Assembly (NCBI GenBank): GCA_012064415.1
Contig: SSNU01000256.1
Span: forward strand, 300,336-364,335
Reading direction: 5' to 3'
Length of the DNA stretch: 64,000 nt
From: Gyrodactylus bullatarudis
Taxonomy: Eukaryota; Platyhelminthes; Monogenea; Gyrodactylidea; Gyrodactylidae
Part shown: positions 4,421-59,035 of the stretch, piece by piece
How positions within the stretch are numbered: position 1 is the first letter of the stretch
Layout: each line of letters begins with the position of its first letter
Translations under genes and position numbers: made by a program
Notes under the pieces: model-generated
Databases searched by the model: none
What the model was told of the DNA's origin: nothing
The model's input: only the letters and a program-made list of their open reading frames with translations

Positions 4421-7400
4421 GCTTTATGCTACAATTTTAACGATTTCAAATGGTAAAGTTGTTTGCTAGCTCCTCTAAAACCACACAAAACGAAACATAT
4501 AAGAATGTGGTTCAAGAGTTATGGGAACTGTACGAAAAAAAGCTTCTTCCTCTAGAAAAAGCTTATAAATTCCATGATTTTCATTCTCCACCTTTGGAAT
4601 ATGCTGATTTCGACTCAAAGCCCATGGTTCTTTTAATCGGTCAATACTCTACCGGTAAAACAACCTTCATCAATTATCTGCTCAATGAAAAGTTTCCAGG
4701 AATGCACATTGGTCCTGAGCCAACCACAGACAGATTTATGGCAATCATGCATGATGAAAGACAGGGTGTTATACCAGGAAATGCACTCGTTGTCGACTCT
4801 AAGAAACAATATCGTCCTCTTGCAAAGTTTGGAAATGCATTCTTGAACAGATTCCAATGCTCTCATCTACCAAACAGTGTCCTTGAAAGTGTCACAATGA
4901 TCGATACACCAGGTATCCTTAGTGGTGAGAAACAACGCCTTGATCGTGGCTATGATTTTGCTGGAGTTATCGAATGGTTCGCTGAACGTGTAGATCGTAT
5001 AGTTCTCTTATTTGATGCTCATAAATTGGACATTTCGGATGAATTCAAACGTGTCATAGAAGTCTTGAAGGTAACTCATTTCTTGTCATATCCTAAACAG
5101 GCATTAATTTCCTCTTGGTTAATTCATAAATTTTTCATTCGAATCATGTTAATAACCTTATGAATCTTCTCATCATTAACAACAACCTATTTTATATATA
5201 CATTGTTCATATTATCATTTTCATACTGCTTTCTTGAAGGAAAAGGTTAGTCTCTTGCATCCTCATGCTAATCAAGTGACGTTAAACCACAAAAATACCC
5301 ATTATTTTAGGCTTATCATTGTATTACCTGAATAATTGAGCAAAAACACATCATTGCATGCATGCTGACATGTCTAAAGTATGCCAAAGTCTAAAGATTT
5401 ATTCGACATCTCCTCTCTTACCCCCCATCATTATATTCATGGCGATAATAATTTATCGTATTGAAGCAAAAATGTTGAATGACTCTTGCAAGATGATTTT
5501 TGTTCCAATTACCTCAAGTCAATACAATGAAATTTGTTTCTTTTTTTACTCATTTAAGACAGTTTGTGTGCATATTGGATAAATTCATCCTCTTTCAATT
5601 GTGACAACAGTCTCCCCTTTTGTATATAGAGATTCATCATCATTTGAAATTACAAACTTATATTCACTTGATAATTTATTGGCCAATTGAGTAACTGATA
5701 ACTATAATTTTCCCATCCATGTATACAAAATGTATTTTTATTATTATTTCAACGTCAATACTAAATTTTTTTTATAATTTTATCTCCCAAGAGTGCCCTT
5801 CTATATAATAATACTGTACATATATAAACAAATTTAAGAAAAATAAATATTTAATTTGCCCTGGGTAACTTTATAAATCCTTCTTAGGGGAACGAAGAAA
5901 AGATTCGCATTGTCCTCAATAAGGCAGACATGGTCGATTCGCAACAATTGATGAGAGTGTATGGCGCTTTAATGTGGAGTCTTGGCAAGATCCTCTACAC
6001 CCCGGAAGTGGCACGTGTCTACATTGGTACCTTTTGGGATAGACCCCTTCAATACGATACCAATAGGAGATTATTCGAATTAGAGGAAAATGATCTATTT
6101 CAAGATCTTCGCCTTCTTCCCTGTAATGCAGCCCTGAGAAAGTTGAATGATCTCATTCGCAGAGCTCGCCTCGCTAAGGTTAGTTATTCTTTTATGATTA
6201 TTAGAGAAAGACAAATATTTTTTTACCCGAACAATTTCTATCTAGTACTTCCAATAGATTCTTTAAGCTCCGTAATCGTAGTTTTCAAAAACTAAAATAA
6301 ATTGTTAATTTTTCCTAAATTGACCGGATATTTTCAGGATGTATTCAGAATATATTTAATATTAATTTGACGAGAAAAATTTTTAAAAATCATTTCTCTT
6401 AATAAATTTCATTGAAAATGGTGACGCGAATTTGAAAATTTGACTTCTTCAATTGAAATTATGCATATCTAAATAAAATTTAAAACATAAGGTTTAATAG
6501 GATTTTTTTCATCTTGTCTTATTTTCTATCAAATGAAAGCATAAACTCGAAAAGTTAAAAATTATCTCTCACCCTAATGATTATGATATATATATTTATC
6601 AAATGTCAAAAATTTCTCTCTTCAATCAAGTTAACATTTTAAACTCTGCTAATATAAATGAAGATTTCACCATTTGGATCTCGAGAATACTTTTTCATTT
6701 TTTGTAGCAAATTTGAAAAGTAATTGGGAAGAAACTTTGAATCAAAAAAATCATACAAAATCAAATTATTTTCGATCCAAAATACCGCCACATGAAGGAA
6801 TATCAGTCTTGATTACTATGTCATTTTTCATTCATTCAAATCATTCAGATAATTATGTAGTAAAAGCGATTAAGAAATTGATTCGTTCATTTCTCTCTTA
6901 GATCGATTGTTTGCTATTCTGTAATGATAATAATACACTTGGATCTCTGTCCGGAAACATTCATTAAGTTGCACTCTCAAGTCTGGTCTTTTTTCTCTCT
7001 TAATGAACCGTTCTTCTTTTCATATACACAGAGTGTGCCTTTGCTTATAATCCAACTCATTTAGATAAACTTTTCTCTAATTTCATAGACATTCTGATTG
7101 GGAATCTCATCATAAGTCTTGCACTGAATCCGTGGATATTTTCAATTTTCAGCAATCTTCTTTGAAAATGTCAAAAGAGTCTGTTCAGTATCAGATTCAA
7201 GGTCATTTAAACTTTTGACTCTGATGATTTTTAGTGCCTAAAACAAAGTCTCCTTTCAAAAGCTATATAATAACTCTTGAATTGAAAAAAATCATTCGAT
7301 CAAAACTATTGTTGTTCTGATCTTTTCAAAAAACGATTAGACTTTTCTCTCTTCTTCGCTAGTCACAAGTGTCATGTGAAAAAACCTGATCTTTTCTTTT

Positions 7401-15716: not shown

Positions 15717-16618
15717 CTAATTATAGGTTTTCATGATACTTTGATTGTCCTCCAAATTTGGATGAACATTTTCAATATTAACAGGGTATGACTGTTTAAA
15801 TAGGGGCATTATACATAAAATGATTATCGTAGCTGCTGAAGCTAACGTTAGAAATATCCAAAACAATAATCTATCGAGAACATAAGCAACCATCTTCCAT
15901 TCTGCGACAACAGTCTGTATTCTTTCAGTTTCTTTTTGCTTCTCAATCAACCGATAGAGGTGCCTTGATATCTGGTCGTAATGTTCTCTGGTCTTGTGGA
16001 CCAACTCAATGAGCACTTGTATGTTGGGCATGAAAATGTCGTTAAAGTTTTCTCTGATCGAGTCCTCATCGTCCAAATCATCATAGTTCATTTTCATTGT
16101 GTATGAGGCAATCTCCTTGAGTTTACTCTCGTGATAACTCTTCAAGAGAGGTAATGGACTAGACTGGCGTTCATCATCGGTGTCTTTATACTCTTGGTAA
16201 TCATCAGAGCCGCCAACCGTCGGCCTGAGAAGACTCCTTGTCGGGCTGAAATTTAATCTAAATATTCCACGATGTTTTCTACTCGACAACTCAGAGCAGA
16301 TCGTGGACTTTGTGGTACTGGTTGGCTTTTGTTGAAGATAGCTTAATGGGGATATACCATCTGGATGATAGGCTGGCGCTGAGAATGCTTGGTTGGATTT
16401 ATGATGTTGTTGTGAGTCTGTTCGAGTTGTACTTTTAAGTTTGGCATCAAGGTTTTCTATATTCATGCGTAGAAACTTTGCAACGTAGTTGAAGAGGAAA
16501 CGTTTAACTCTCCTTGGTACAGGTGCATGATTCGGTCCTGTATGATGAATGTGGAGAACACCAACTGTTAAAACTATCGAAAGTGAAGTCATTGCCATGG
16601 TAACGGTGAGAAAAATTC
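15717..16618 (-). CDS. nAChR last exon (M3, cytoplasmic loop, M4)
   Basis: 902 bases. The first two bases complete a glycine codon. Encodes M3 ([17 protein letters not shown]), a Ser/Thr- and acid-rich intracellular loop of about 200 residues, the amphipathic MA helix region before M4, M4 itself, and a 29-residue extracellular tail ending at TAG. Acceptor TTTCTTTAG at 16619 onward. The internal ATG at 16598 is not a start. Confidence 0.94.
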
Positions 16619-19600
16619 CTAAAGAAACACAAAGAAATTAATTCACTCCTTCATCATGATTTCAATTAATTAGCAATGAGTAGAGCCTCAAAAAATAATA
16701 AAAAGTTTTTTCCAAGATCTTAAAAATTCCAAGAAAAATAGTTTTCGATTACTTTATGGCGGATTTACAAAAATAATCTTTCTTAAACTACTTATGAGTA
16801 AACCAAAAATGAGTATATTGAAAATCAATTAATGTTGAAATTTATCTAAAAATATTATTCAAATTACCATCTCCAAGGTTATTTTTGAGCTTATTGAATT
16901 CTTAGACAATGAAAATCATCTGTCTGCCTCAAAAAATGTGGATTTTTATCATTGATATGAATGAAATGCTATGCTATAATTATAATTATACAGGTAAAAG
17001 TCCTGTAAAGTGAGAAGAGATAAATTAAAACCGGATAGATCCTCGTATATATAGGGTTAATTCGGGTTGAATATTATTGGTAGATTGCATGGACCAATGA
17101 GAATCGATAATTTACAATTTTAGTACCTTATTTTCAAAATAATACATTTTAAGACCTTGTGACTTTGAGCCTTGAGGCCTTTATTTCAGGCACTGCTCAT
17201 CTAAAAGAACCCCGAAGAAGCCATAGGACCAATGTCCATGGTATTAACCCTTTCAGGGTCCGAGTCTATTTAATGACTTCAAACATTGAATATAAATACA
17301 TATTCGGAATCAGAATGAATTATAGATGAATAATAAAACCTTAAATCATCTGAAAACCTTTAAATAAAAAATTCTTTTTCGACACTTTTCAATAAATTTT
17401 TCCTATCTACTTTCAAGCGACCACACAAGTAGTTGTAGGATTGTGAATTTTGTCCATCCCAATGAAATACCTTATGGTTCAACTTTTTTCGGGAAGATTG
17501 ATAAAAAAGTTATTAAATGGTGTGTATCTTTTATTCATAGGATTTTTATTTCTACAAAAAATTTTAGGTTTGATATTTTGGCCCACATATGGGCCATGGA
17601 CCTGAAAGGGTTAAGCAGATATAGATAAAAGTATATTTGGCAAATTCTTTTTAAAAAATTTCTTTTACTGAGGTCACAACTTTGGTCTCTCGTCTACTAA
17701 AATTTCCATTTTGAAAAGTCACTTCATCAATAAAGATGACATCTCTCCAGAAACACATTGGATGATTCTTATAGTTTGTTAAAATGATGTGTGATAGAGC
17801 TGTCAATGTGGGTTAAGATTCTATTAATAGTTGTCTTGGAGATACCAGTTTCTCTAACTATTTCAGAAACTTAAAGTCCTCTAGATTTTAGAAGTCTTAT
17901 CCAACGATGTTTTCCAGCGGATAACCACATGATTATTTATAGTTTAAATTTATGAATAAAAAATAACCATGCTTTTAAATAATTAAATTTGTTGGAAAAA
18001 GAAACTCCCGAATTTTCAAAATGAAAATTTTGATGGAAAATGACAGAATCCCAAAATCATGAGATAATGGTAAATTGAGCTTCAATTACAAATAGTATAA
18101 TTTTAAGAGTTCAAACATTATTTTAAGACAAAATATAACGCTCGAAAGTGTCCTTGGCGGTCTGTGAATCTAAAGGCTGATTTTCTTTAGCCAATGCTCT
18201 TCGATGATTTAACAAGGAATAAGAAAACCTATGTTAAACGATTTTTTGGTGTCCAGATAAACCACGGGCGGGGGGTTGGCCATTTACTAAGAATTTGTCG
18301 CAAAAAATTTTGTGAGTACATTCCCAACTTTATTAACTAGCTTTAGATCTACGCTGAGTGTGGAAAGATGTGTGACTTTTCCGCATCGAATTAGAGAAAA
18401 TATAAAACAGTTGTTTAATTTTCAATCAAATCTTATCTAGTTCGTAAGTATTCAGGGAAGTTAAACATTTCTGAATCACGATTTACAGAAATGAGGGTAC
18501 AAGAGAGCAGGAAGAGGAATCTTGACATGATTTTCCTTTTAAACTTGATGAAAGTGTTTATTTACAAATAGTAAATAAATCTAGAATTTTCCCTCGTTTG
18601 TAAAATGAAATCTTAGCCAAGCTTACAGCTCAACATTTTTACTATAAACTCCGATTTGATTGATTTTATCACACTGCCTAAAGTTCAGAAGAAATCTGAT
18701 TGGTTCAAAGTTTTGATTGAACATACGAGCTTTTTTAAGAAGACCTTTCTATAATGGTAATCTAAAAGGTTTCGTTTCTAAATATAATGACCAATTCTTT
18801 TCTTCGAACAACTCACGAGAGTACTTTCTTTTTTGATAAAATTTATTACTCAGACGATGTTTTGCATATTTTTGAAAGTCATCCTCCGTTATGTTATTGC
18901 CCATTTTTCCCACAATATCCCACGGAAATGATAAAACAATGAAATTAACCATGAAGATCCTCTTGATGATAAGATTACTATTTTTCAAAATGATAACTTG
19001 ATAAACTCATTAAATTGCCAAGAAATTCCGGTTCTAGTTAGTTCTATCAGAAAAGTTGGTACTAATATGAAGATGAAAATTTCACGTTACCCTAAATATG
19101 ACCAACATATTACTTATTTTTAGAGAAATACTAAAATTTCAAAGTTCTAGGAGTTCAACTTACCAATTAATGGTACAAATTCACTTGTTGCTGGCATATT
19201 CTCAGCGATGAGCAGCATAAAAACTGAAAAGGCAAGTAATACAGTAATGCCAAGAGTGATTTTCTCCCCAGAATCTGGAGGCAACCAGAAGCCCAACAGA
19301 CTCAGGACTGTTAACCACAAGCACGGGAAGATTATATTGAATAGATAGTAGACTGTCCTTCTACGCATACGAAATATGAAACACAGATCTGAGTAATTAA
19401 ATGGGCAGCATGGATATTGTGTCTGAAATAATTGTACGATTAAATAGAAATCACTGTATTGAAAATTTTAACAATTGAATATTATTCATCAACCCTTTCT
19501 ATACCAGAAGTCATATATGACCTCTATGTTTATACTGACTTTTTCCAATGATTTTGAGACATTTTTTCATGATTATTTTTTGATAGTATATCACAAACTA

Positions 19601-31600: not shown

Positions 31601-34600
31601 CCATCTCTAAGGATTCCTAGGATCTTAATTGGACCTATCTATCATTCTTCAAGCTTTGATAACAATAGATCAAGAATTAATGATATCAACCTTTCAGAGA
31701 GATAGCTTGCTAAGACATTATAAATTTTAACTCTAGAGGAGAATTGTTATTTGATTAAAAATGTGTAGGATTCCTATACCATAAAACAAATTATTTTTTT
31801 AGACATTAAACCCGCTAGCTAAGTGTGGTCACTGGTTATTACTATATCCTTGTGAATCTAACTTGATGGAGATTGTCTTCTCACACCTAGATGTTAGAGT
31901 TCGGATAAGCAAGTGTCAATTCCATAAGAGAGTCAATTAATACTCAAATCACGGTGGCAGATGTATACGCGTTTCGTCCCTTTTAGGACTAGTCAGTACA
32001 CCATAGCCTGGATTCGAACCAAGGTCTTCAACGTTATGAGGCAACGCCTCTAACCTCTAGGCCAGAACCCCCGTTCGTCTCCTATTTCTGGTTCTCAACA
32101 CTCCCATAGTATTGACACCACCAGTATTGACACAAAGTAGAAATTACATTGTTTTTAGACATTAAACCTACTAGCTAAGAAGACCCGGGTTCGAATCCAG
32201 GCTATGGTGTACTGACGAGTCCTAATAAGGACGAAACGCGTATACATCTGCCACCGTGATTTGAGTATTATTTGACTCTCTTATGTAATTGACACTTGCT
32301 TATCCGAACTCTAACATCTAGGTGTGAGAAGACAATCTCCATCAAGTTAGATTCACAAGGATATAGTAATAACCAGTGACCACACTTAGCTAGCGGGTTT
32401 AATGTCTAAAAACAATGTAATTTCTACTTTGTGCTTATTCAAAAAAATTATTTTTTTGTTTATATCAAAAGTAAAATTCTGGGGATTCGGAAATTTTCGG
32501 AATATTTCTGAATCTGAAGAACGCTACTATAAACAATTAGAATCGTTTGATTTTTCCAAAATTTCTGGTTGAGCGGTGCTCTAATCAACATTAGACTCAG
32601 TAAAACAAATTCATTATTCAATTTTTATAGGAGGACCGTGATAAGAGTGCCTTTTTATGATTCGATATCCAAAATATTTTCAGACAATCTTGAGACCTTG
32701 ATAAAAAATGAGATTTTCGTAAAATTCATAATTTTGAGCCTAGTAGAAGTTGAGTAGTGCAGTTCACAAAGATCTAAAGATTTTGATGAACTATTATTCT
32801 AAATTGTAATAACCAACTGTATTATCGATTAGATTATTCAGTTCCATCAGGGGATACATACATATCTTAAACATTTATTCATGTCAGAATTAATTTTCCT
32901 CAGTTTATACATGTTCCCTTTTTTTGCTGTGTGTATAAAATTCAAAATCATCTGCTGAATGTTGAATGACTGAATTATCTCTGCTCAGCATGGATCTTCA
33001 ATTCCTCATAGGAATGTCTGAATATAAATCCCTAAATACTGATAATTATTCATGATCTGATTTAATGCTGTTTCCCACTAAATTCAACTAGAAATGACTA
33101 AATTCAGATATAGATGTTAACCCTTATAGTCCTAATTCGAAGAGAGTTTATTAATTTCAGGATCATAAATGAAAAAGAAGATAACTCTTATCGAGTAATC
33201 ATTGATTACTAATCAATAAAATAGAATAAATTCACAAACCATTTGGTAGACAAAAGATTGAATGCATGAAAATAAATTCTCTTGGACTTAAGGGTATGGT
33301 TCTGAGCCCATTGAACCCTTTTATACGAAGAATTGTTGAACCAATTAAAGTTATAAAATTTAAGTAATCTGATTGGTTAACATGTAATAATCCAATAGAA
33401 TTTCAGTAAAATGCAAAATTTTCTTCATTCCTATTTGCTATATATGAATGAGTGAGTGTTAACTAAAAAATGCCTTTAGAATGGCGACTATTTCATCATG
33501 AAAAATAGTAATTTTCATTAATAGTGTATTAAAACCTCTTTCTGATTGGTAAATGTACCCATAATATATGTTATGTTTTCGTTTTACAACCAAAATCACA
33601 TATTCTTTGTAAGTAGATGTCTGATAAATACAGCTCATCATTTGATAAATTATAAAAAAAGCTAAAAAATTCTGAACAAGAATTGAATTTAGAACTTACC
33701 TGTTCTATCCATACATTGATAGTAAGAACTTGGTTTACTTCATCCTGAAATGATAACAAAATTAATGAGGTAAATTAAAAAGTGAGATTTTAACATTTCT
33801 TTTTACCGTTCTATTTCTATTTACGATGTGATACAGGTGAAAGGGAGTGTATCTAAATGAGAATAGATTTCAAAAACTTTTCTAATCTTGAAATTGTCAA
33901 AACCTTCATTAGAGTACACCTCAATTTTTAAAAATATCAACACTCCTATATTCTGGGTTAGATTTTAGTAATAATTAGATACAGAGGATTTTATTATATA
34001 TCTATTCTCAGAAAATTGATAGGTGTAAATACTTGAACTGTATTCCGCCAAAAACATTGCGCGGTTGGACAGTTTTCTAACCTACATATGCTCAAATTCG
34101 TGGAAGCTTTCTTCATTCTTAAAGAAAAACCCATGTCTATGTCTATGGAATCCGATAATTAACATAATTTTATAGAGGTACAACTGTATAAGTTTTTCCG
34201 CTCAGTTTCCAGGAACTTGATAAATCGAAAATTGACTAAATTTCTAACAGTAAAATTTATTAAGAAATTGAAGCTCGATTCCTTCTCAATCCTAAGGTCA
34301 ATTAAACCAATTTGACCGCCTTCTCATTTTTAAATCAATAAAAATTTTGAAAATATGGGAATTTGGCGTCCACAATTTTCTCAAAAACTTTTATTTCCAA
34401 ACTCTTTTTCTTTTTTAACTGGTAAGAGTGAGTCGAATTATATAGCTGCAAGTTATCAGAAGCATCAACAAATACAATAAAATCAACCCCTTGTTTCCCA
34501 AGCGATGTATAAAATCATTTCAACCAATGGAAGTGCTGCAAAATTCGTATTGTGATATATCTAACCCAGCGAAAGAAAACTTATATCACTAAAATGTTTG

Positions 34601-37600
34601 TTTGTTTTCTCTAAACCTCTTTATGAGTTCAGAATCAAATATTATTCTTGATGAAGTTCGAAAATATTATCGTTCAAATAATAAAATCAGATTTCATACG
34701 ACATAGCTTAATAATTTAATTTATTCTATCGCCCATTATAATCACGATTAGATATTATAACACAATTAGAGCTTGCAAAAAGTTCTAATGAGGCAAATTC
34801 CTTATTCACTCTCTCAATGTATTATAGTATAATAAGAAAGACTGAATTGGCCTTCCTCACCTCTACAAATGGAGACTGAAAAGATTAAATACGTTTTATT
34901 CATAAAAATATATGTATGCATGTATAGTTTAAATGGTATATGTACTACTCATTGTCAGTCATCATGAGAATAGTCTGTTGATAAGAATATATAGATGGAG
35001 AAAGATTATATAATTTACTGGTCGAAATCCTCCAATAATTCCTCCGTTGGAACAATAACAATGAGGAATAAGAAGAATTGTCGATAATAACAATAATAAT
35101 AATACGTGATGAACACATAACTCCCTCATTTATAGCTAAATAATTCTCAATACAATACTACTACTTGTCCGACTGTAAAAACAGAGAGAGAGAGAGAATA
35201 AGATGAAAGACGAAAGAGACGTGATATAACGATGAGTAGTAGACTTTATCAATTCAAGGGTGGGATTCCTTCATTGATTAGGTTAAAGATTTCAAACTCG
35301 ATTATATTATCACAATCAAGTTTACACATAATGATATGATAATACTGTTTGTGCGATAAGTAATGGGACTGAATACAAAAAATGATTTCATTGAAAAAAA
35401 ACTTGAGAAAGATCAATTGGATATCAGTGAAAATAGTTTCGTGATGAATAAAGACATGTCCCGTAAAGAATTTGTTCTTTTCTAATTCCATAAGCAAAGA
35501 ATTCATCAAATTTAGAGTTGAGAAAGGGGATTTAATCCATTTTCTGCCACATCTTTTGATTTGCGAATTTCGACTTTAGGAAAAGGTTCTAGAGATTTGA
35601 AATGGGGATTATCAGACGGCGCAAGGTAAAGACCTATGTAATCACAGTGTTCCTTCTAAAATAATTTTAAATCTTTAACCTACTAGCAAAGTGTGGTCAC
35701 TGGTAATTGCTATATCCATATGAACTCTAACTCGATGGAGATTTTCTTCTCACACCTTGATGTTAGAAATTCGGATAAGCAAGTGTCAATAATAAATTAT
35801 TATTAAAATGTCACGACAAGCACAAATATTATAGAAAAGCCCTGAAGTACCGCATAAAGTTCTTTGATGAATTTGACTAAAGATGGAAAATTCTTCTGAA
35901 AACTGTCTTAAAATCATCAATGAATCTTGACTGGATTTACTTATAAGTAGTATAATTTTAATGGAAAAACTATAATAGGCTACTTTAGGCTTTTAAAGAA
36001 GCAGACTATTTTCGTAGGCGCCTATAATCTAATTTTAGTGGACTTTTTTTTGGGGCCCTAATAATAATCATAAGAGAGTCAAATAATATTCAACTCACGT
36101 TCCGTCCTTATTAGGACTCGTCACTACACCATAGCCAGGATTCGAACCCAGGTCTTCAACGCTTCTAACCAATTGGCCACAACCCCCATTCATCTCCTAT
36201 TTCTGGTTCTGGCCCACTGGTTAGAAGCGTTGCCTCACAACGTTGAAGACCTGGGTTCGAATCCTGGCTATGGTGTACTGACGAGTCCTAATAAGGACGG
36301 AACGTGAGTTGAATATTATTTGACTCTCTTATGATTATTATTGACACTTGCTTATCCGAATTTCTAACATCAAGGTGTGAGAAGAAAATCTCCATTGAGT
36401 TAGAGTTCATATGGATATAGCAATTACCAGTGACCACACTTTGCTAGTAGGTTAATTGTCTGAAAACACTGTAATTTCTACATGTTGCTAATTTTAAATC
36501 TCTTTTCCGAAATGGGGTTTCCAGTTGTTCTGAAGAGAAATGAGTCTACAGAATCTCGGATATTTTTATCCAAGAGTAAATGGATACTCTGAATACTCAT
36601 TTCTATTAACATCTAATAAGTTCAAACAAATAGCGTGATTACTTATCTTTATAATGGTACCAAATTTGTTCATATTAGTTTTGGAGAATAAAATTTTTGT
36701 TCAAGTTGTAGTCCCATTACTTATTGAACAACCTAATATATTAGGGGGATACGAATTCTTACAACTTTTTTCGGATATTTGCTAATTCGGTAGAGAATTT
36801 TGAGAAAAAATCCTTTTGATTTGAATATTTTGAAGCAAGTTTTGATATACAAAATCTCATTTGAAAATTACTTTTTTTAAATCTTCGCCAAAAAATTTTC
36901 AATGAATTTTACTACGAGAAGATGAAATTGAGGTTTATAGGGTTTATAGTAAAAAATGAGTCTTGACCACTAAATTCAATTTCCAGCTAAGCAAAAATAG
37001 ACCTATTTTATCTAACTTCTTCAGACATTTTCAAGCTTAACTTAAAGTACTGATAATATTTCTGGATCAGATTAAATGTCTTAATCGTTTCGTGAGATTC
37101 GCCCTAAATTATTCTAAGTCGAAATCCTCAGTTATTACGCAGGTCTGAACAATATTCTATAATCTATTTTATAATTCGCGCTAAAATAATCTCAAGAATA
37201 CCAAGAGATATCTAAACTTGGATAAAATAATCAAGATTAGTAAAATTTTGTTTTCATCTACTTAATAGTAGATGGGAAATTCAATAGAAAATCGACTTGC
37301 TTAAATGGGATCAAAAGAATCCCTATTGAATAGAATGTTGAGTATTTTCCTATCGTCTCAATAGGGTTAAAAGATGTAGAGCAGTTCTCTATTGTTTTTA
37401 AAAATCATAATATTTTTCAAATTGCCGCCCGATTTCAAATGTAATTTTTACTACATGATCAATTTTATATTGAATGTAGTTAATGGACCTTAGAATGCCC
37501 AAAATCGATTTCATATGATTTCTCTTTCTAGTCCAGATAAATCGAGTTACTTTAGGGAGTATAGAAGATGAATTATGATTCTGGACCCTCGATGAAGGAT

Positions 37601-40600: not shown

Positions 40601-43600
40601 ACATGAAATAATCAATAGGTTGGTGGACTGGAGTTCTTTGTTTTTACTGAGAATAATCATTATTATTTCGTGATCTATTGCTTTCCTTCTTTCTATTACT
40701 GTTTTGTATGGATCCAGGAAAAATTTAAATTAATGATTCATTTGATATATTCTTTTTCTTTTCATTCTTTAGATTTTATATTATTATTCAAGATCATATT
40801 TTTATGAATTTCTTTTAGAGGAATCGATGATTTAAAATTGATCCTTCTTATAAAAAATGAGTCAGAAATAAAAATCATGAAAAGTTCATTTCTAATTTGA
40901 CTAATTTCAGTGATGAGAAGGTTTTTTTCACTAGAGAGTACTTAATGCCCATCATTCCTAGCATCTATGAATTTTACCATTGTTATTGATTCTATTTGGT
41001 CTCGATGGATACGAGAGGATTAAAGGTGATAAAATAGCAATAGAAAGGATCCCGATCTAGATTATGATCTTGAATGGTGGTGGTCTAATTCAGAAGTCAT
41101 TTCAGAAAGAGCGGGAAATTTTCATTGATTTTAATCATCATAATTTCAATGTCTTATTGAATCATTTGTATATTTCTATTTAAATATGAGGATATATATA
41201 TTTAAATCCACCTTTAAAACAACAGAAACATTCATGTACTTTAGTGAAAAAAGATGAATAAACACGGGTAAGATTTCAAGTCAGGAAAAAAATGAAAATA
41301 ATCTCTTTTCAACTAACTACTACATATAAATAACTTGTTAAGTTAAGGGAGGAGGGAAGAATAATATAATATTCTAGTAAATACGTAAATTGGTCCCTTG
41401 AATAAAAATAGTAGACTTTAGTGTAATATATAACATATTTCCTTTGCAACATTCGAGAAAAGCATTCTGATACAATTTGAAAATTTTCCAATATGCTTTT
41501 TAAATAATGAAACAAAACATTTGCTTCATAAATAATTCAAATTTTATCGAATTTATATATTCAAGTAGATATGTATTACTGAGCTCTTGAGAAATTCTAA
41601 AAGAAAGAATTTAAAAAGTCCAACGAAAAACATGATTTTTAACTTCTTCCGTATATTCTATTGAGTCATGACTCATGACTAAACCATGATTTGATTTCTA
41701 TGACGAAAAAATTTTCCTTTTTAACTCATTTTGAATTTTTTTCGATGTTCTGCGTGTTCATTTTCCTAGGGCGTTGTGAAATATTTTTGATTTTATATCT
41801 CAGACCACGTCTCATTGTAACAATTAGTTCTTTACCTGTAAATACCAACTACAGTAGTAAAGAGAGGGCAGACAACGTTAGACAGATATGTTAGAAGAAA
41901 GCAATGATTATGTTGAAAACCAACTAGGTCCCTGCTCACTTCTCTTGATGATCCAAATTGATAGAACCAATCAGAAATTTGTATATCTGCTAGATATTAT
42001 CTAGCCGGGGAAATGAAGTCTCCTTGCTATTAGGAAGTTACGAAGAAAACTCTTAATTTATCTTCAAATTAATAAGAAATTCAAGGATCAAATGGAATGA
42101 AGAACACATTGGATCTGGGAAAAATTTTGATCCGCACATGTAAGTTTAATAAGAAAGATTTTTTTTAGAAACTTGCTTACTTTTCGTTCAGTAATCCAAG
42201 TGTTAGTTCAAAAAAATACATGTTTTTAGATACAAAGATTAATAATCTTGAAGATGTTGTGAGTGATTTCTTTGTGTAATTTCCTTTCATCTAATTAGAT
42301 TTTGTTATGATGAAAAATGAAATGATTTCCCTTGTTAGTTGAAACCTCAATTTAACGGCAATGATGGAATATTTCTCTAACCATTAAAGACCCAGAGAAA
42401 ATTTTTTCAAGGTACATTTAAAATCTCCTAGGGTTTCAGAATACGCTGATAAGGAATTTATTTCAAAAACCAATCTTTTAGCTTAGGAGTTATTTGCCCA
42501 AATATGGCCAAGAGATGAATTCACATTTTCATGGTTAAAGTTTCTTCCTTTTTTCTCTTCGATCTCTGGAAGTGGTTTTCAAAAAAAAAGGGCTTTATAT
42601 TTTCTAGGCAATTTTAATATTTTTAAATTGTAATAACTCCTCAATGAAATATTGAAGCTTGAAAAGTCATAGCTCATTCAAAAGAATATAAATTCTTCTT
42701 TCTGGAAAGTGATCAATGAATAACACAGTCTAGCAAAAAAAGTAGGTAACGATAAAATTTGGAGGAATGGTATAGTTTGATTTGAAAGTAAAAAATATCA
42801 ACCAAAAAAATTTTTCAACGTGTAGTTTTCGAGTAATTTGACATTTAGTACGAAAAAAATTGAGTCAAATTTTATCCTATAGAATTTTTATTTCTCAATC
42901 AATATTCATAAAAAACATACCATTTTGAAGAGGAGAAAATTTGCTACAATCCCTTGCCTGACCACTTTGAGCTTCGACGTATAAATTCCAAGATATTTCC
43001 AATAACAGTGAAATTTGTTCAAAAATTGAAAAAAAATGAAAAATTTCAAAAGCTTTTTTCAGTCCTTTACCGATGGCCTAGAAAATTTTCCTTCCAATCC
43101 TAGATAGGGAGATAGTTGAAATTTATTTTGTTGCTTTTAAATTTCCAAAAAAGTTAATTATATGGCGTGTATTCGTGAAAATGTATACAATTTTACGGTT
43201 TTTCAAAATTTACAATTTCTGATGTGAATGAACTTAGAAAAAATTTTGAGAAGAATATTTCTACTTTCATAGCAAAAAATAAAATTTAGAAGGATTCTGT
43301 TTTAAAACTGATCAGGTTTCCATTTAAAAAGAATATTAGGTTTTTGAAAATAATATTTTATTTTTAAAAAATTATACTTTTAGGAAATCTGCCAGCAATA
43401 ATCAGCTAGCATATTGATATCCTTCTTTCCAAAATATCTTTCTTCTATTTTCTTCATCAATTTATGAAAATGCTCGCCCTGTTCATCTGAATTTTTTGAT
43501 AGGGGTCCACTAGGAAATGCGTCCAAATGACATTTCAAATAGTGGGTTTTTAATGTCATATTGCATCCCAAGTACTCATAGATTGATAAAAATTCTTTAA

Positions 43601-46600
43601 TATATCTTTTATAATTTCTAGACTTTCTCTTTCCAAAAAATCCTCCCATTAATTTCTTGAAGCTTTCAATAGCCCATTTTTCAAATGGATTCAGAAAATT
43701 TGAAAATCTTTCATCCTTAATTAATTGCCTTATTTTCGGCCCAACTAGAATACCATTTTTGATTTTAACTTCTGATACTTTTGGGTATTTACGTTTTATA
43801 AACATCAATGCGTCGATTGAAAGGTTTTTAGAGATTTGTTGAAATAAACCAAGCATTATGTGCAAAGGAGGAGGCAACAAAAGGTGGCTTTTTACCAAAG
43901 GTCTTCTGATTTGGTTATATTCCTCAATCAATTGGTTCCTTTTAGGCCATTTGTTATTTTTGAAATTATTTGATTTCGAATCAAACAAACATCTATGGCA
44001 TGGAAACTTTGAATTTCCAGAACTGGATAAACCACTTAATATATTGCACATTTTAAAATCTGAAATTATTTTCCATAAATATTCCTTATAGTTAGTTAGT
44101 TCCAGAATCTCTTTAATGGTTTCGTAATCTTCAATACATGATCTTGAATATGCGATTGGTACCGGCTTAAGTTTATTCCCATTAGACAATAAAACGAATT
44201 TCAAACTGTTCACTGATTTATCAATGAATAGTCTCCATAAAACTGGATTAATTTGGTATGTTAAACTTTTTAATCGATTTGAAAATTATATCCTTAAGAT
44301 TACATTCATTTTGACTTTCTTCTTTATCTTCTTGCTTAGGTAGTATAGGTTCGCTATCAGAATATGATACGTATAAATGATGTTTTTGTTTTTGAAAAGG
44401 AATCTTTATGGAGTTACAAAAGAAACAGTTTTCATCATGATTAATAGGGTTTCTCCAATTTTTCGGTTTTATTTTAAGATTTCTATTTGAAAATACTTTT
44501 GCATGACAACACTTGCAAATCTTGTCAGGAGTATAGGGTTTAACTTCAAGTTTAATAGAATATCTAACAAAAGCTTTTTCAATTGTTTTATCAGATAATT
44601 CAAGGAGAGGATTTTTCTTTGAGCCAAATAATCCGCAGATGATGCAGAATTTAGATCTATTAAAAGAGCACTGGTTTCTGGAAGAAACGTTCAAAGGTTC
44701 CATTTCATGAAAAAATTTGATGCGAATGAATTTTACAAATATTTCAATGGAAGAATTTACAATTAGAGTAAATATTCTTCTCAAAATTTTTTCTAAGTTC
44801 ATTCACATCAATTTTCTCCTCTTCAAAATGGTATGTTTTTTATGAATATTGATTGAGGAATAAAAATTCTATAGGATAAAATTTGACTCAATTTTTTTCG
44901 TACTAAATGTCAAATTACTCGAAAACTACACGTTGAAAAATTTTTTTGGTTGATATTTTTTACTTTCACATCAAACTATACCATTCCTCCAAATTTTATC
45001 GTTACCTACTTTTTTTGCTAGACTGTGTTATTTCAAGTTTCTTTCAGTCAGAATTATGGCTTGAGAAAGTCACCTTCCCGTATACGACACACTGGGACTA
45101 GAAGGGTTAAATCTTGAAATAATTCGAGAAAAAAGTATTTTTATAAGAAAGCGGGATAGATTCTGAAGAGACCTAGTGTGTTTGTCACTCGAATATTCGC
45201 TTGTTCTTAGCTAAGCTTTCATGCAATTAGACGTTGACAAGCTAATTTTTGAATCTTCAATTATTAAATTGAATTAATTTTTAAGCGGTAAATATATGAC
45301 CGGCATAAAGAAATACGACTTTCACACGAGATACTCAAAAAATCTCATTGAACATAACTAGTTCGCTCCTCTGTTGAGTAATAAATCTTGATCACACTGT
45401 TACATTAAAATATTTCACTCTCGAATTTGCAAAAATTATTATCTACTTGAATTTAGAGTGTGGAATAGGCTAAGGTGAAATTATATTTTTCCCGAACAAT
45501 TCACGAGAGTACTTACTTTTCTGTAAAATTTAGTAGATTTTTTGCATATTTTTAAAGCGTGCCATTCCCTATTTACCCACAATGTCCCACGGAAATGATA
45601 AAACAACGAAATCCACCATAAGATTACTATTTTTGAAAATTAAACTTAAGAAATTCATTTAACGGCCAAAAAATAATGCTTAGAACTGATATTTCTATCA
45701 GGAAAATCAGTACAACTATGAGTTTAAAAATATCAACCCTACCCTAGTGTCGAATGTAAAATTCCTATAATATAAGCCTAATTGACATGAAAATGTGAAT
45801 TTACCATTTTTATAAAATACTCAATATTTTTCTCCGGATTCACAGAAAAAAATTATTTTTTGAATTCCAAAACGGAATGAGCTAATAAGATATGGATATT
45901 CGAAAAAATTCCGAAAAAAATTCAATCTGACCAAAATTAAGCCGTTTGTTGAATTTCAAAAATTCACCGAATTTCCACTTTTTCAACTTCTGAACCCAAA
46001 ATTTTCATCGATTTCGATGATTCGAAGCAGTTAAGTGATGATATTTGGGATCAAAATTGAACGAAGAATTCAAATTCACCTGCAGAAGTTCCTCAATGCT
46101 GTGGGAAATCGAACCATTTGAATTTTTCGATCATCACGAAGGCAAATTATCCAAAATCTGGAAGTTTAACTTTTTCTCTAAAACAGTAATATCTTCGCTA
46201 TCACTATGGCCAAATCCAATTTCTTCGGAGAAAAATATCGTGTTTTTTGTAAAAATGGCAAATTCTCATCTTCGTGTCAATTAGGTTTACTTGGTGAGAT
46301 TTTGCAAAATTATCGTTTTTATGATTTTTTTTTCAGGAGCTTTAATACTTCCTACCGAGTGAGTGGTTAACAGCACTGAGTTTATTAAATTATTACTCTT
46401 GAAAATTTTCTGATTTTGATACCAAACGACATGCAATATCGAATACATCTGATTAGATAACACTTAAAGATAAAATACATGGCATAAGCACGTAGGAATA
46501 TTGAAAAACATAGAGTATTTCTCATGAAATTAATCCCTTACTCACACATTGTGATGAAATTGGAAAATGTTTGCTCAAAAATTTAGATCGTTTCTCTCCT

Positions 46601-58854: not shown

Positions 58855-58975
58855 TGAAATCTAACCTGATGAAGATTAGCTTCTCACATCTAGATGTTAG
58901 AAATAGAACAAGCAATTTTCGATTCTATGCGATTCGTCTCTATTGGGACTCGTCAGTATAATAGGTTGAAGATCC
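58855..58975 (-). mobile_element. Old tRNA-hammerhead SINE, left (minus) unit of inverted pair C
   Basis: On the minus strand: CTGACGA, GTCCCAATAGAGAC as a stem II region, then GAATC where GAAAC is expected, and the shared tail TTCTAACATCTAGATGTGAG. More diverged than pairs A and B; the tRNA-like head is not readable. Confidence 0.6.
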
Positions 58976-59035
58976 GAGTTAGAATAAGTCCTAATAAGTA
59001 TGGAACGCGTCTACATCCACCACCGTCTGCTTTCT
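58976..59035 (+). mobile_element. Old tRNA-hammerhead SINE, right (plus) unit of inverted pair C
   Basis: AATAAGTCCTAATAAGTATG, then GAACGCGTCTACATCC and CACCGTCTGC: the stem II, GAA, ACGCGT and stem I 3' parts of the hammerhead segment at 32206-32260 are visible, with the CUGANGA eroded. Head-to-head with the left unit. Confidence 0.55.

Follow-up and report, generated by a model that had tools for sequence, protein, structure and literature searches.

tRNA-headed hammerhead SINEs of a gyrodactylid flatworm and their probable copying by a Penelope-like reverse transcriptase

What kind of element places an intact hammerhead ribozyme directly behind a tRNA-type promoter box, and by which machinery could such an element be spread through its host genome? 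This question is raised by a locus in the middle of the window, i.e., the whole stretch of 64,000 nucleotides of Gyrodactylus bullatarudis DNA that was analysed. A sequence-only reading had proposed a SINE-like retroelement at 32183..32443 of what it took for an arthropod-type genome. The host assignment was mistaken, because the COX1 of the same assembly (C13) places the host among gyrodactylid flatworms, being 85% identical to that of Gyrodactylus albolacustris and 80-81% identical to those of Macrogyrodactylus, Cichlidarus, and Paragyrodactylus. The element itself is real but represents only one arm, the right one, of an insertion spanning 31796-32447, which consists of two head-to-head pieces of a unit of ca. 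366 nt within a 13-bp target duplication. As developed below, we think that this insertion belongs to a group of short, non-coding, tRNA-headed hammerhead SINEs that are probably copied in trans by the reverse transcriptase of Penelope-like elements (PLEs). The parts of the insertion and of its unit are as follows:

31788..31800, no strand: left target-site duplication AAATTATTTTTTT, of low complexity and with a microhomology overlap with the element end
31796..32122, minus strand: left arm, unit positions 331-11, 91% identical to the natural unit L012:1403-1768
31960..32002, minus strand: left-arm hammerhead with a damaged core (CTGACTA)
32003..32072, minus strand: left-arm tRNA-like head with its A box at 32054-32064 and its B box at 32010-32020
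32131..32179, minus strand: left-arm remnant of the 3' part of an upstream unit, unit positions 304-352, 100% identity
32179..32447, plus strand: right arm, unit positions 98-366, 97% identical to L012:1403-1768
32188-32198, plus strand: right-arm B box GGTTCGAATCC; the head is truncated and the right arm has no A box
32206..32248, plus strand: hammerhead of type I, core intact and stem III palindromic; cleavage is predicted to follow 32242
32413..32447, plus strand: "tail" between the short and long end sites, present outward in the right arm only
32445..32457, no strand: right target-site duplication AAATTATTTTTTT, matching the left copy
Unit map (unit positions): head from 55; A box at 63; B box at 107; hammerhead at 125-167; short end at ca. 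331; long end at ca. 366

The unit length of ca. 366 nt follows from tandem junctions in L012, L016, L018, L027, L034, L037, L041, and L043, and the natural copy in the first of these loci starts with CCAGTGTG. In the window copy, the outer end of the left arm is the short (S) site GTCTAAAAA and that of the right arm the long (L) site TTCAAAAAAA, while the piece at 32131..32179 comes from an upstream unit and is thus evidence for a tandem template. Rfam matches to MIR869 at 31935-32273 were discarded since they appear only to mirror the inverted repeat. With inverted arms of 234 bp and 49 bp (97% complementary over 234 nt) and a target duplication, the window copy could pass for a MITE, i.e., a DNA transposon bounded by long terminal inverted repeats, with a hammerhead that it carries by chance. 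However, arm lengths and inner junctions vary between copies, some insertions with duplications have a single arm, two kinds of outer ends occur, and junctions between tandem units lie inside the arms; the variable junctions and tandem units rule this reading out for all practical purposes. The window also holds an older second insertion of the same family (family A) at 36069-36493, which is likewise head-to-head, has a right arm ending at the long site, and carries a broken hammerhead (GGAA for GAAA). Blastn found more family A fragments at 35665-35790 and 58860-59026 and a fragment of a second family (family B) at 1967-2106.

Base-by-base reading and a script check both recovered the intact hammerhead behind a tRNA-type B box at 32206-32248. 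The B box precedes it as had been claimed, but the gap to stem I is seven bases and not eight. CTGACGA (32212-32218) is followed by a 4-bp stem II (GTCC/GGAC, 32219-32222 / 32229-32232) with the 6-base loop TAATAA, by GAA (32233-32235), by the palindrome ACGCGT (32236-32241), and by A17 at 32242, and stem I comprises six pairs, one of them G-U, between GGTGTA (32206-32211) and TACATC (32243-32248). With 20.2 bits in the Rfam type I model, this copy falls below the gathering score of 34, which no match in the window reaches, and even the best family A hammerhead tested (L075) scores 26.6 bits. Some family B copies lie above the cut-off (39.4 bits in L058, 37.4 in L063, and 36.8 in L047) and others below it (26.5-29.2 bits for L087, L089, and the two of L086). 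Assignment to type I is thus given by the model for these family B copies, whereas the family A copies tested stay below the cut-off with their core intact. Genome-wide, 29 hammerheads exceed the cut-off among the 57 Rfam matches listed (73 of 11180 candidates scored). The core pattern CTGANGANNCCN{3,8}GGNNGAAA has 177+191 = 368 matches in 77.3 Mb, and a B box stands 11-16 bases ahead of CTGANGA in 167 places, compared to none for the reversed control of either pattern. Family B shares its stem III (ACGCGCGU) with the Rfam type I consensus, which is drawn mainly from schistosome sequences.

Compensatory base changes, which had been put forward as a check on the ribozyme, are indeed seen among the copies: two stem I pairs differ between families A and B on both sides of the stem (GGUGUA/UACAUC versus GGCAUA/UAUGUC), a pairing judged by eye as MAFFT had put the difference in stem III length inside stem I. 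Stem III is a loop-less palindrome in both families, ACGCGT (ACGCGU) in A and ACGCGCGT (ACGCGCGU as RNA) in B. It is also palindromic in the family C copy L091 (ACTATAGT; ACUAUAGU as RNA) and in a hammerhead-like motif of the PLE L092 (ATGTACAT; AUGUACAU as RNA), imperfect in the two other family C copies that were read, and near-palindromic in the PLEs L093 and L094. Because a monomer could not form stem III from the ACGCGU palindrome without a loop, the ribozyme would need two copies. Two-strand folding of family B indeed predicts a dimer hammerhead (-30.1 versus -16.0 for two monomers), and for the L092 motif it predicts a dimer that lacks stem II and is held together by stem I and by a palindromic helix exceeding stem III by two pairs (-16.0 versus -12.0). 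The minimum-energy folds of family A, both as monomer and as dimer, are other than a hammerhead, which we count against our explanation. In a subfamily of family A (e.g., L014:1301-1343), C replaces A at the cleavage-site base (CGCGTC|TACATC), where hammerheads allow both A and C. The third hammerhead family, C (L091:2439-2483 on the minus strand, L065, and L081), has a stem II near CCC/GGG.

Dimeric action of minimal PLE hammerheads has been described by Lunse et al. 2017, as cited in a passage of PMC7761336. The hammerhead could also be a mere passenger of a moving unit, no longer working or no longer needed. Hammerhead mutants left PLE insertion in vitro unaffected according to an excerpt of PMC11167929, and the left-arm hammerhead of the window copy is broken. 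Set against this are the retention of the core pattern across its 368 matches and the maintained pairing of stems I and III despite sequence differences between the families, and we therefore consider a passenger role unlikely.

A 261-bp query with the element gives at least 70 genome matches (40 of 925 candidates scored), as befits a dispersed short non-coding repeat. The claim that sister copies carry an A box and an anticodon-like arm was borne out by 34 matches to a combined A box, B box, and CTGANGA pattern, compared to none for the reversed control. The fusion of a tRNA-like head to a hammerhead in a dispersed repeat is thus supported by core, B-box, and A-box pattern counts as well as by tRNA alignments. 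When six heads were aligned to 14 of the host's own tRNA genes, with 300 dinucleotide shuffles per head, the five from families A and B scored above all 300 shuffles. Family A heads are nearest to tRNA-Arg-CCT (scores of 54, 52, and, for a diverged copy, 40; shuffle maxima of 37, 36, and 35) and family B heads to tRNA-Ser (43 and 40; maxima of 37 and 35), so that the two families have heads like different tRNAs. The family C head is weak, its score of 34 being matched by three of 300 shuffles. As this comparison covers only 14 tRNA genes, the true parent tRNA may be another in each case.

General tRNA models are not passed by these heads, which comes close to one of the refuting outcomes named in the sequence-only reading (no tRNA-model hit for the head), although the alignments above speak for a tRNA origin. 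The best Rfam score is 17.4 bits against a cut-off of 29 (at 32007-32064, in the left-arm head of the window copy, the fuller of its two), Rfam found no tRNA at E<=5 in 20 loci, and ARAGORN found none in 25 loci. Decayed SINE heads commonly fail general tRNA models. By eye, no hammerhead core was seen in C24, C465, and C252, the oddest of 20 read among the 33 tRNA matches listed. The units of families A and B have no TTTT on the sense strand, which is not significant given that 262 and 387 of 1000 shuffles likewise lack it; the idea of selection against TTTT was dropped on account of these shares (26% for A and 39% for B).

How these units enter the genome can be read from their ends; the sequence-only reading had missed the head-to-head arrangement, the two classes of ends, and the connection to Penelope. 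The family A set comprises 53 rows after removal of the duplicate loci L057, L067, and L068, and 23 of these have two classed outer ends, 26 have one, and four have none. Exact duplications of at least 10 bp (10-15 bp) flank 14 of the 23 two-arm insertions, compared to three of 506 mismatched flanks in which left and right flanks had been paired from different insertions, and the corresponding counts for at least 12 bp are 12/23 and 0/506. This excess indicates that both arms enter in one event. The other nine two-arm insertions have no exact duplication of at least 10 bp, and only four of the 26 insertions with one classed end do.

The outer ends of family A form two clusters, L at 357-366 and S at 315-342, with a median gap of 34.5 nt. 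One S end is combined with one L end in 18 of the 23 two-arm insertions (p=0.004 given the class frequencies, with class limits that were fixed after a first look at the ends), and the five cases of equal classes comprise four short-short and one long-long insertion (L019). From 17 family B loci we dropped those that were single-arm, complex, cut off, or without a match, and the arms of L059 and of L086, which lie 67-68 bp apart, were each joined as one two-arm insertion. Judged by eye, end classes are opposite in seven of the eight resulting two-arm insertions (L059, L063, and L086-L090), the sole exception being L073 as short-short or unclear. Opposite ends are thus found in 25 of 31 insertions across both families (p=0.0004 against one half).

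An ordinary LINE-dependent SINE, with inverted arms that result from LINE twin priming, would fit the single-arm, 5'-shortened insertions with 12-13 bp duplications (L021, L024, and L029), and SINEs typically have tRNA heads and A-rich ends. However, twin priming on one RNA yields non-overlapping arms and one 3' end, whereas both arms seen here usually represent one and the same part of the unit, and their 3' ends point outward, at two sites ca. 35 nt apart. Moreover, the A-runs at the insertion ends are internal to the tandem unit and not a tail. The overlapping arms in particular disfavour LINE twin priming, and we regard this explanation as quite improbable.

The anatomy has close counterparts among PLEs. 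In bdelloid rotifers, as described in passages of PMC3846280, an inverted pLTR completes the Penelope insert, most often head-to-head, target-site duplications (TSDs) are 8-10 bp or missing, and one inverted pLTR can bear an optional 31-bp "tail". A section of PMC11167929 reports that an anole PLE protein cuts and extends both strands, starting at two internal RNA sites, and that the 30-40 bp "tail" is the stretch between these two start sites. Both features of PLE-mobilised elements recur in our insertions, i.e., the head-to-head arrangement with target duplications (14/23 versus 3/506) and two sites 30-40 nt apart with a "tail" on one end (gap of 34.5 nt). Because the two-arm ends and duplications match these published hallmarks of endonuclease-bearing PLEs, we consider PLE mobilisation the best reading.

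From the DNA sequence, we infer Pol III transcription, self-cleavage, and trans-mobilisation of these tRNA-hammerhead SINEs along the following route. In the unit, a tRNA-derived head of Pol III type precedes a dimer-type hammerhead and a region of ca. 200 nt that would end in the reverse-transcription start zone, and Pol III would read from the head through a partial tandem. The resulting RNA with two hammerheads could, judging from its structure, cut itself as a dimer through pairing of its palindromic stems III. A PLE protein would then nick both strands of an AT-rich target ca. 12-15 bp apart, leaving the duplications that we observe, and cDNA would be primed at two internal RNA sites ca. 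35 nt apart, usually one per strand, as the end classes indicate. The two cDNAs would extend over variable distances, often past the unit junction, before being joined into the head-to-head product found in the genome.

A retrozyme proper, in which two hammerhead cuts and ligation produce a circular RNA that is copied by a PLE or a LINE, overlaps with this route on the enzyme and differs from it on the RNA. Partial tandems (L010, L016, L018, L027, L034, L041, L043, and others, with a second unit often too short for its own hammerhead), small size, a type I hammerhead, low G+C, and longer target duplications all fit retrozymes as characterised in parts of PMC7229834. The hammerhead cleavage site is crossed by 40 of the 46 arms of family A two-arm insertions, which argues that cut linear RNA did not usually serve as the template and would suit one that was uncut or re-ligated there; cDNA 5' ends of family A show no obvious clustering at the cut (unit position 162). 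Conversely, the longest arm of 637 nt (L010) covers ca. 1.7 units where a circle could give longer runs, and our elements have a tRNA-like head while retrozymes seem to lack promoters according to a passage of PMC7761336. We thus view the circular template as a possible but rather doubtful alternative.

PLEs are abundant in the host, with at least 107 matches. Stop-to-stop frames of 820, 859, and 763 aa were found, and the two PLE frames tested both contain reverse transcriptase and GIY-YIG domains. Of the three PLEs that were read over a long stretch, L093 shows arms in head-to-head orientation whose outer ends lie ca. 50 nt apart, and the lack of such arms from the examined stretches of L092 and L094 counts against the PLE reading. 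By eye, a duplication of 14-16 bp can be recognised on either side of L092, and pLTR-like matches occur in both orientations in L047 and L049. Minimal hammerhead-like motifs with (near-)palindromic stem III are found in PLEs at L092:969 and 3633, L093:833, 3666, and 3600 (minus strand, counted from the far end), and L094:3784, where they sit either beside the start of the ORF or within the 3' terminal repeat; the fully palindromic stem III of the L092 motif, a trait also of families A and B and of L091, speaks for the PLE reading. By eye, the terminal repeats of L092-L094 contain no tRNA heads. No start-zone sequence common to SINEs and PLEs was detected in 15 loci with PLE pieces, not all of which reach the PLE 3' zone, which counts against the PLE reading; the strong matches in this comparison were SINE copies or nearby hammerhead stretches. 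One family C copy lies ca. 1.2 kb upstream of a PLE reverse transcriptase frame at C145. We considered family C as the PLEs' own hammerhead but rejected this, since the copy and the frame are not connected by an open frame and a narrower pattern for the family has only four matches.

Three loci join both kinds of elements, which we count in favour of the PLE reading. In L013:1236-1540, a SINE arm breaks off at unit position 87 and gives way to the pLTR and hammerhead of a PLE of the L094 type, and in L019:1080-1610 and L075:1300-1713 no more than 45 bp separate a shortened PLE from a SINE arm. These junctions look like template switches. Nested insertions are possible instead, since no duplication spanning the composite was found (none of at least 7 bp in L019 and none seen in L013 and L075), and chance neighbours have to be reckoned with because Penelope fragments are common farther out in SINE flanks. 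L048 and L051 contain, beside Penelope fragments, open frames that by eye resemble DNA-transposon transposases.

The sequence-only reading had held that a tRNA-headed hammerhead SINE with an unrelated 180-base tail in an arthropod-type genome may be new. Newness of the fusion is not supported: a passage of PMC2770079 already describes Sm-alpha of Schistosoma mansoni as a tRNA-Gln-TTG-derived SINE with a hammerhead. Like our elements, Sm-alpha and Sj-alpha are SINE-like repeats of flatworms that carry a type I hammerhead, and the Sm-alpha head as described (tRNA-Gln-TTG) differs from the Gyrodactylus heads (like tRNA-Arg-CCT and tRNA-Ser). With metazoan non-LTR retrozymes, the elements share short length, low G+C, partial tandems, a type I hammerhead, and longer target duplications (parts of PMC7229834). 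Unlike these, they have a tRNA-like head, head-to-head two-site insertions, and a palindromic, loop-less stem III. Penelope, Poseidon, and Adineta vaga Pen2a resemble them in head-to-head arms, a "tail" at one end, short TSDs, and partial tandems (sections of PMC3846280, PMC11167929, and PMC7761336), and endonuclease-bearing PLEs likewise carry minimal hammerheads that may act as dimers (a section of PMC7761336). The flatworm SINEs differ from PLEs in having no ORF, a unit of ca. 366 nt, a tRNA-like head, and somewhat longer TSDs, and they share no start-zone sequence with the PLE pieces read in the host genome. LINE-dependent tRNA SINEs are similarly non-coding with a tRNA-like head bearing A and B boxes, but have another insertion anatomy and neither ribozyme nor tandem units. 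The basic kind of element, a flatworm tRNA-derived hammerhead SINE, is therefore already known, while its insertion anatomy looks new; our searches of open-access literature turned up no statement of a SINE that has Penelope-type insertion ends or is moved by PLEs.

PLEs have been named as likely candidates for moving hammerhead retroelements based on co-occurrence and shared ribozymes (passages of PMC7229834 and PMC7761336), and insertion scars in about two dozen copies provide a more specific link. The same scars further suggest that LINEs are not the only retroelement class on which a SINE can depend, and the elements place a promoter-like head on a class said to lack promoters in the consulted part of PMC7761336. 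We lean, by a narrow measure, towards the wider view that SINEs need not depend on LINEs. At least two tRNA-like heads would be spread by PLE reverse transcriptase from two RNA sites, with cDNAs joined head-to-head, a dimer hammerhead in the pathway, and PLE and SINE RNAs that sometimes undergo template switching (L013, L019, and L075). The insertion scars make a sharp prediction here: an RNA of ca. 366 nt should have two start sites, with each strand usually receiving one of them.

Elsewhere in the window, two overlapping open frames of 301 and 184 aa at 43380-44802 may belong to a mobile element, with no Pfam match for the 301-aa frame. Parts of an EHD/dynamin-type gene lie at 4441-5163, and parts of a neurotransmitter-gated ion channel gene at 15717-16637.
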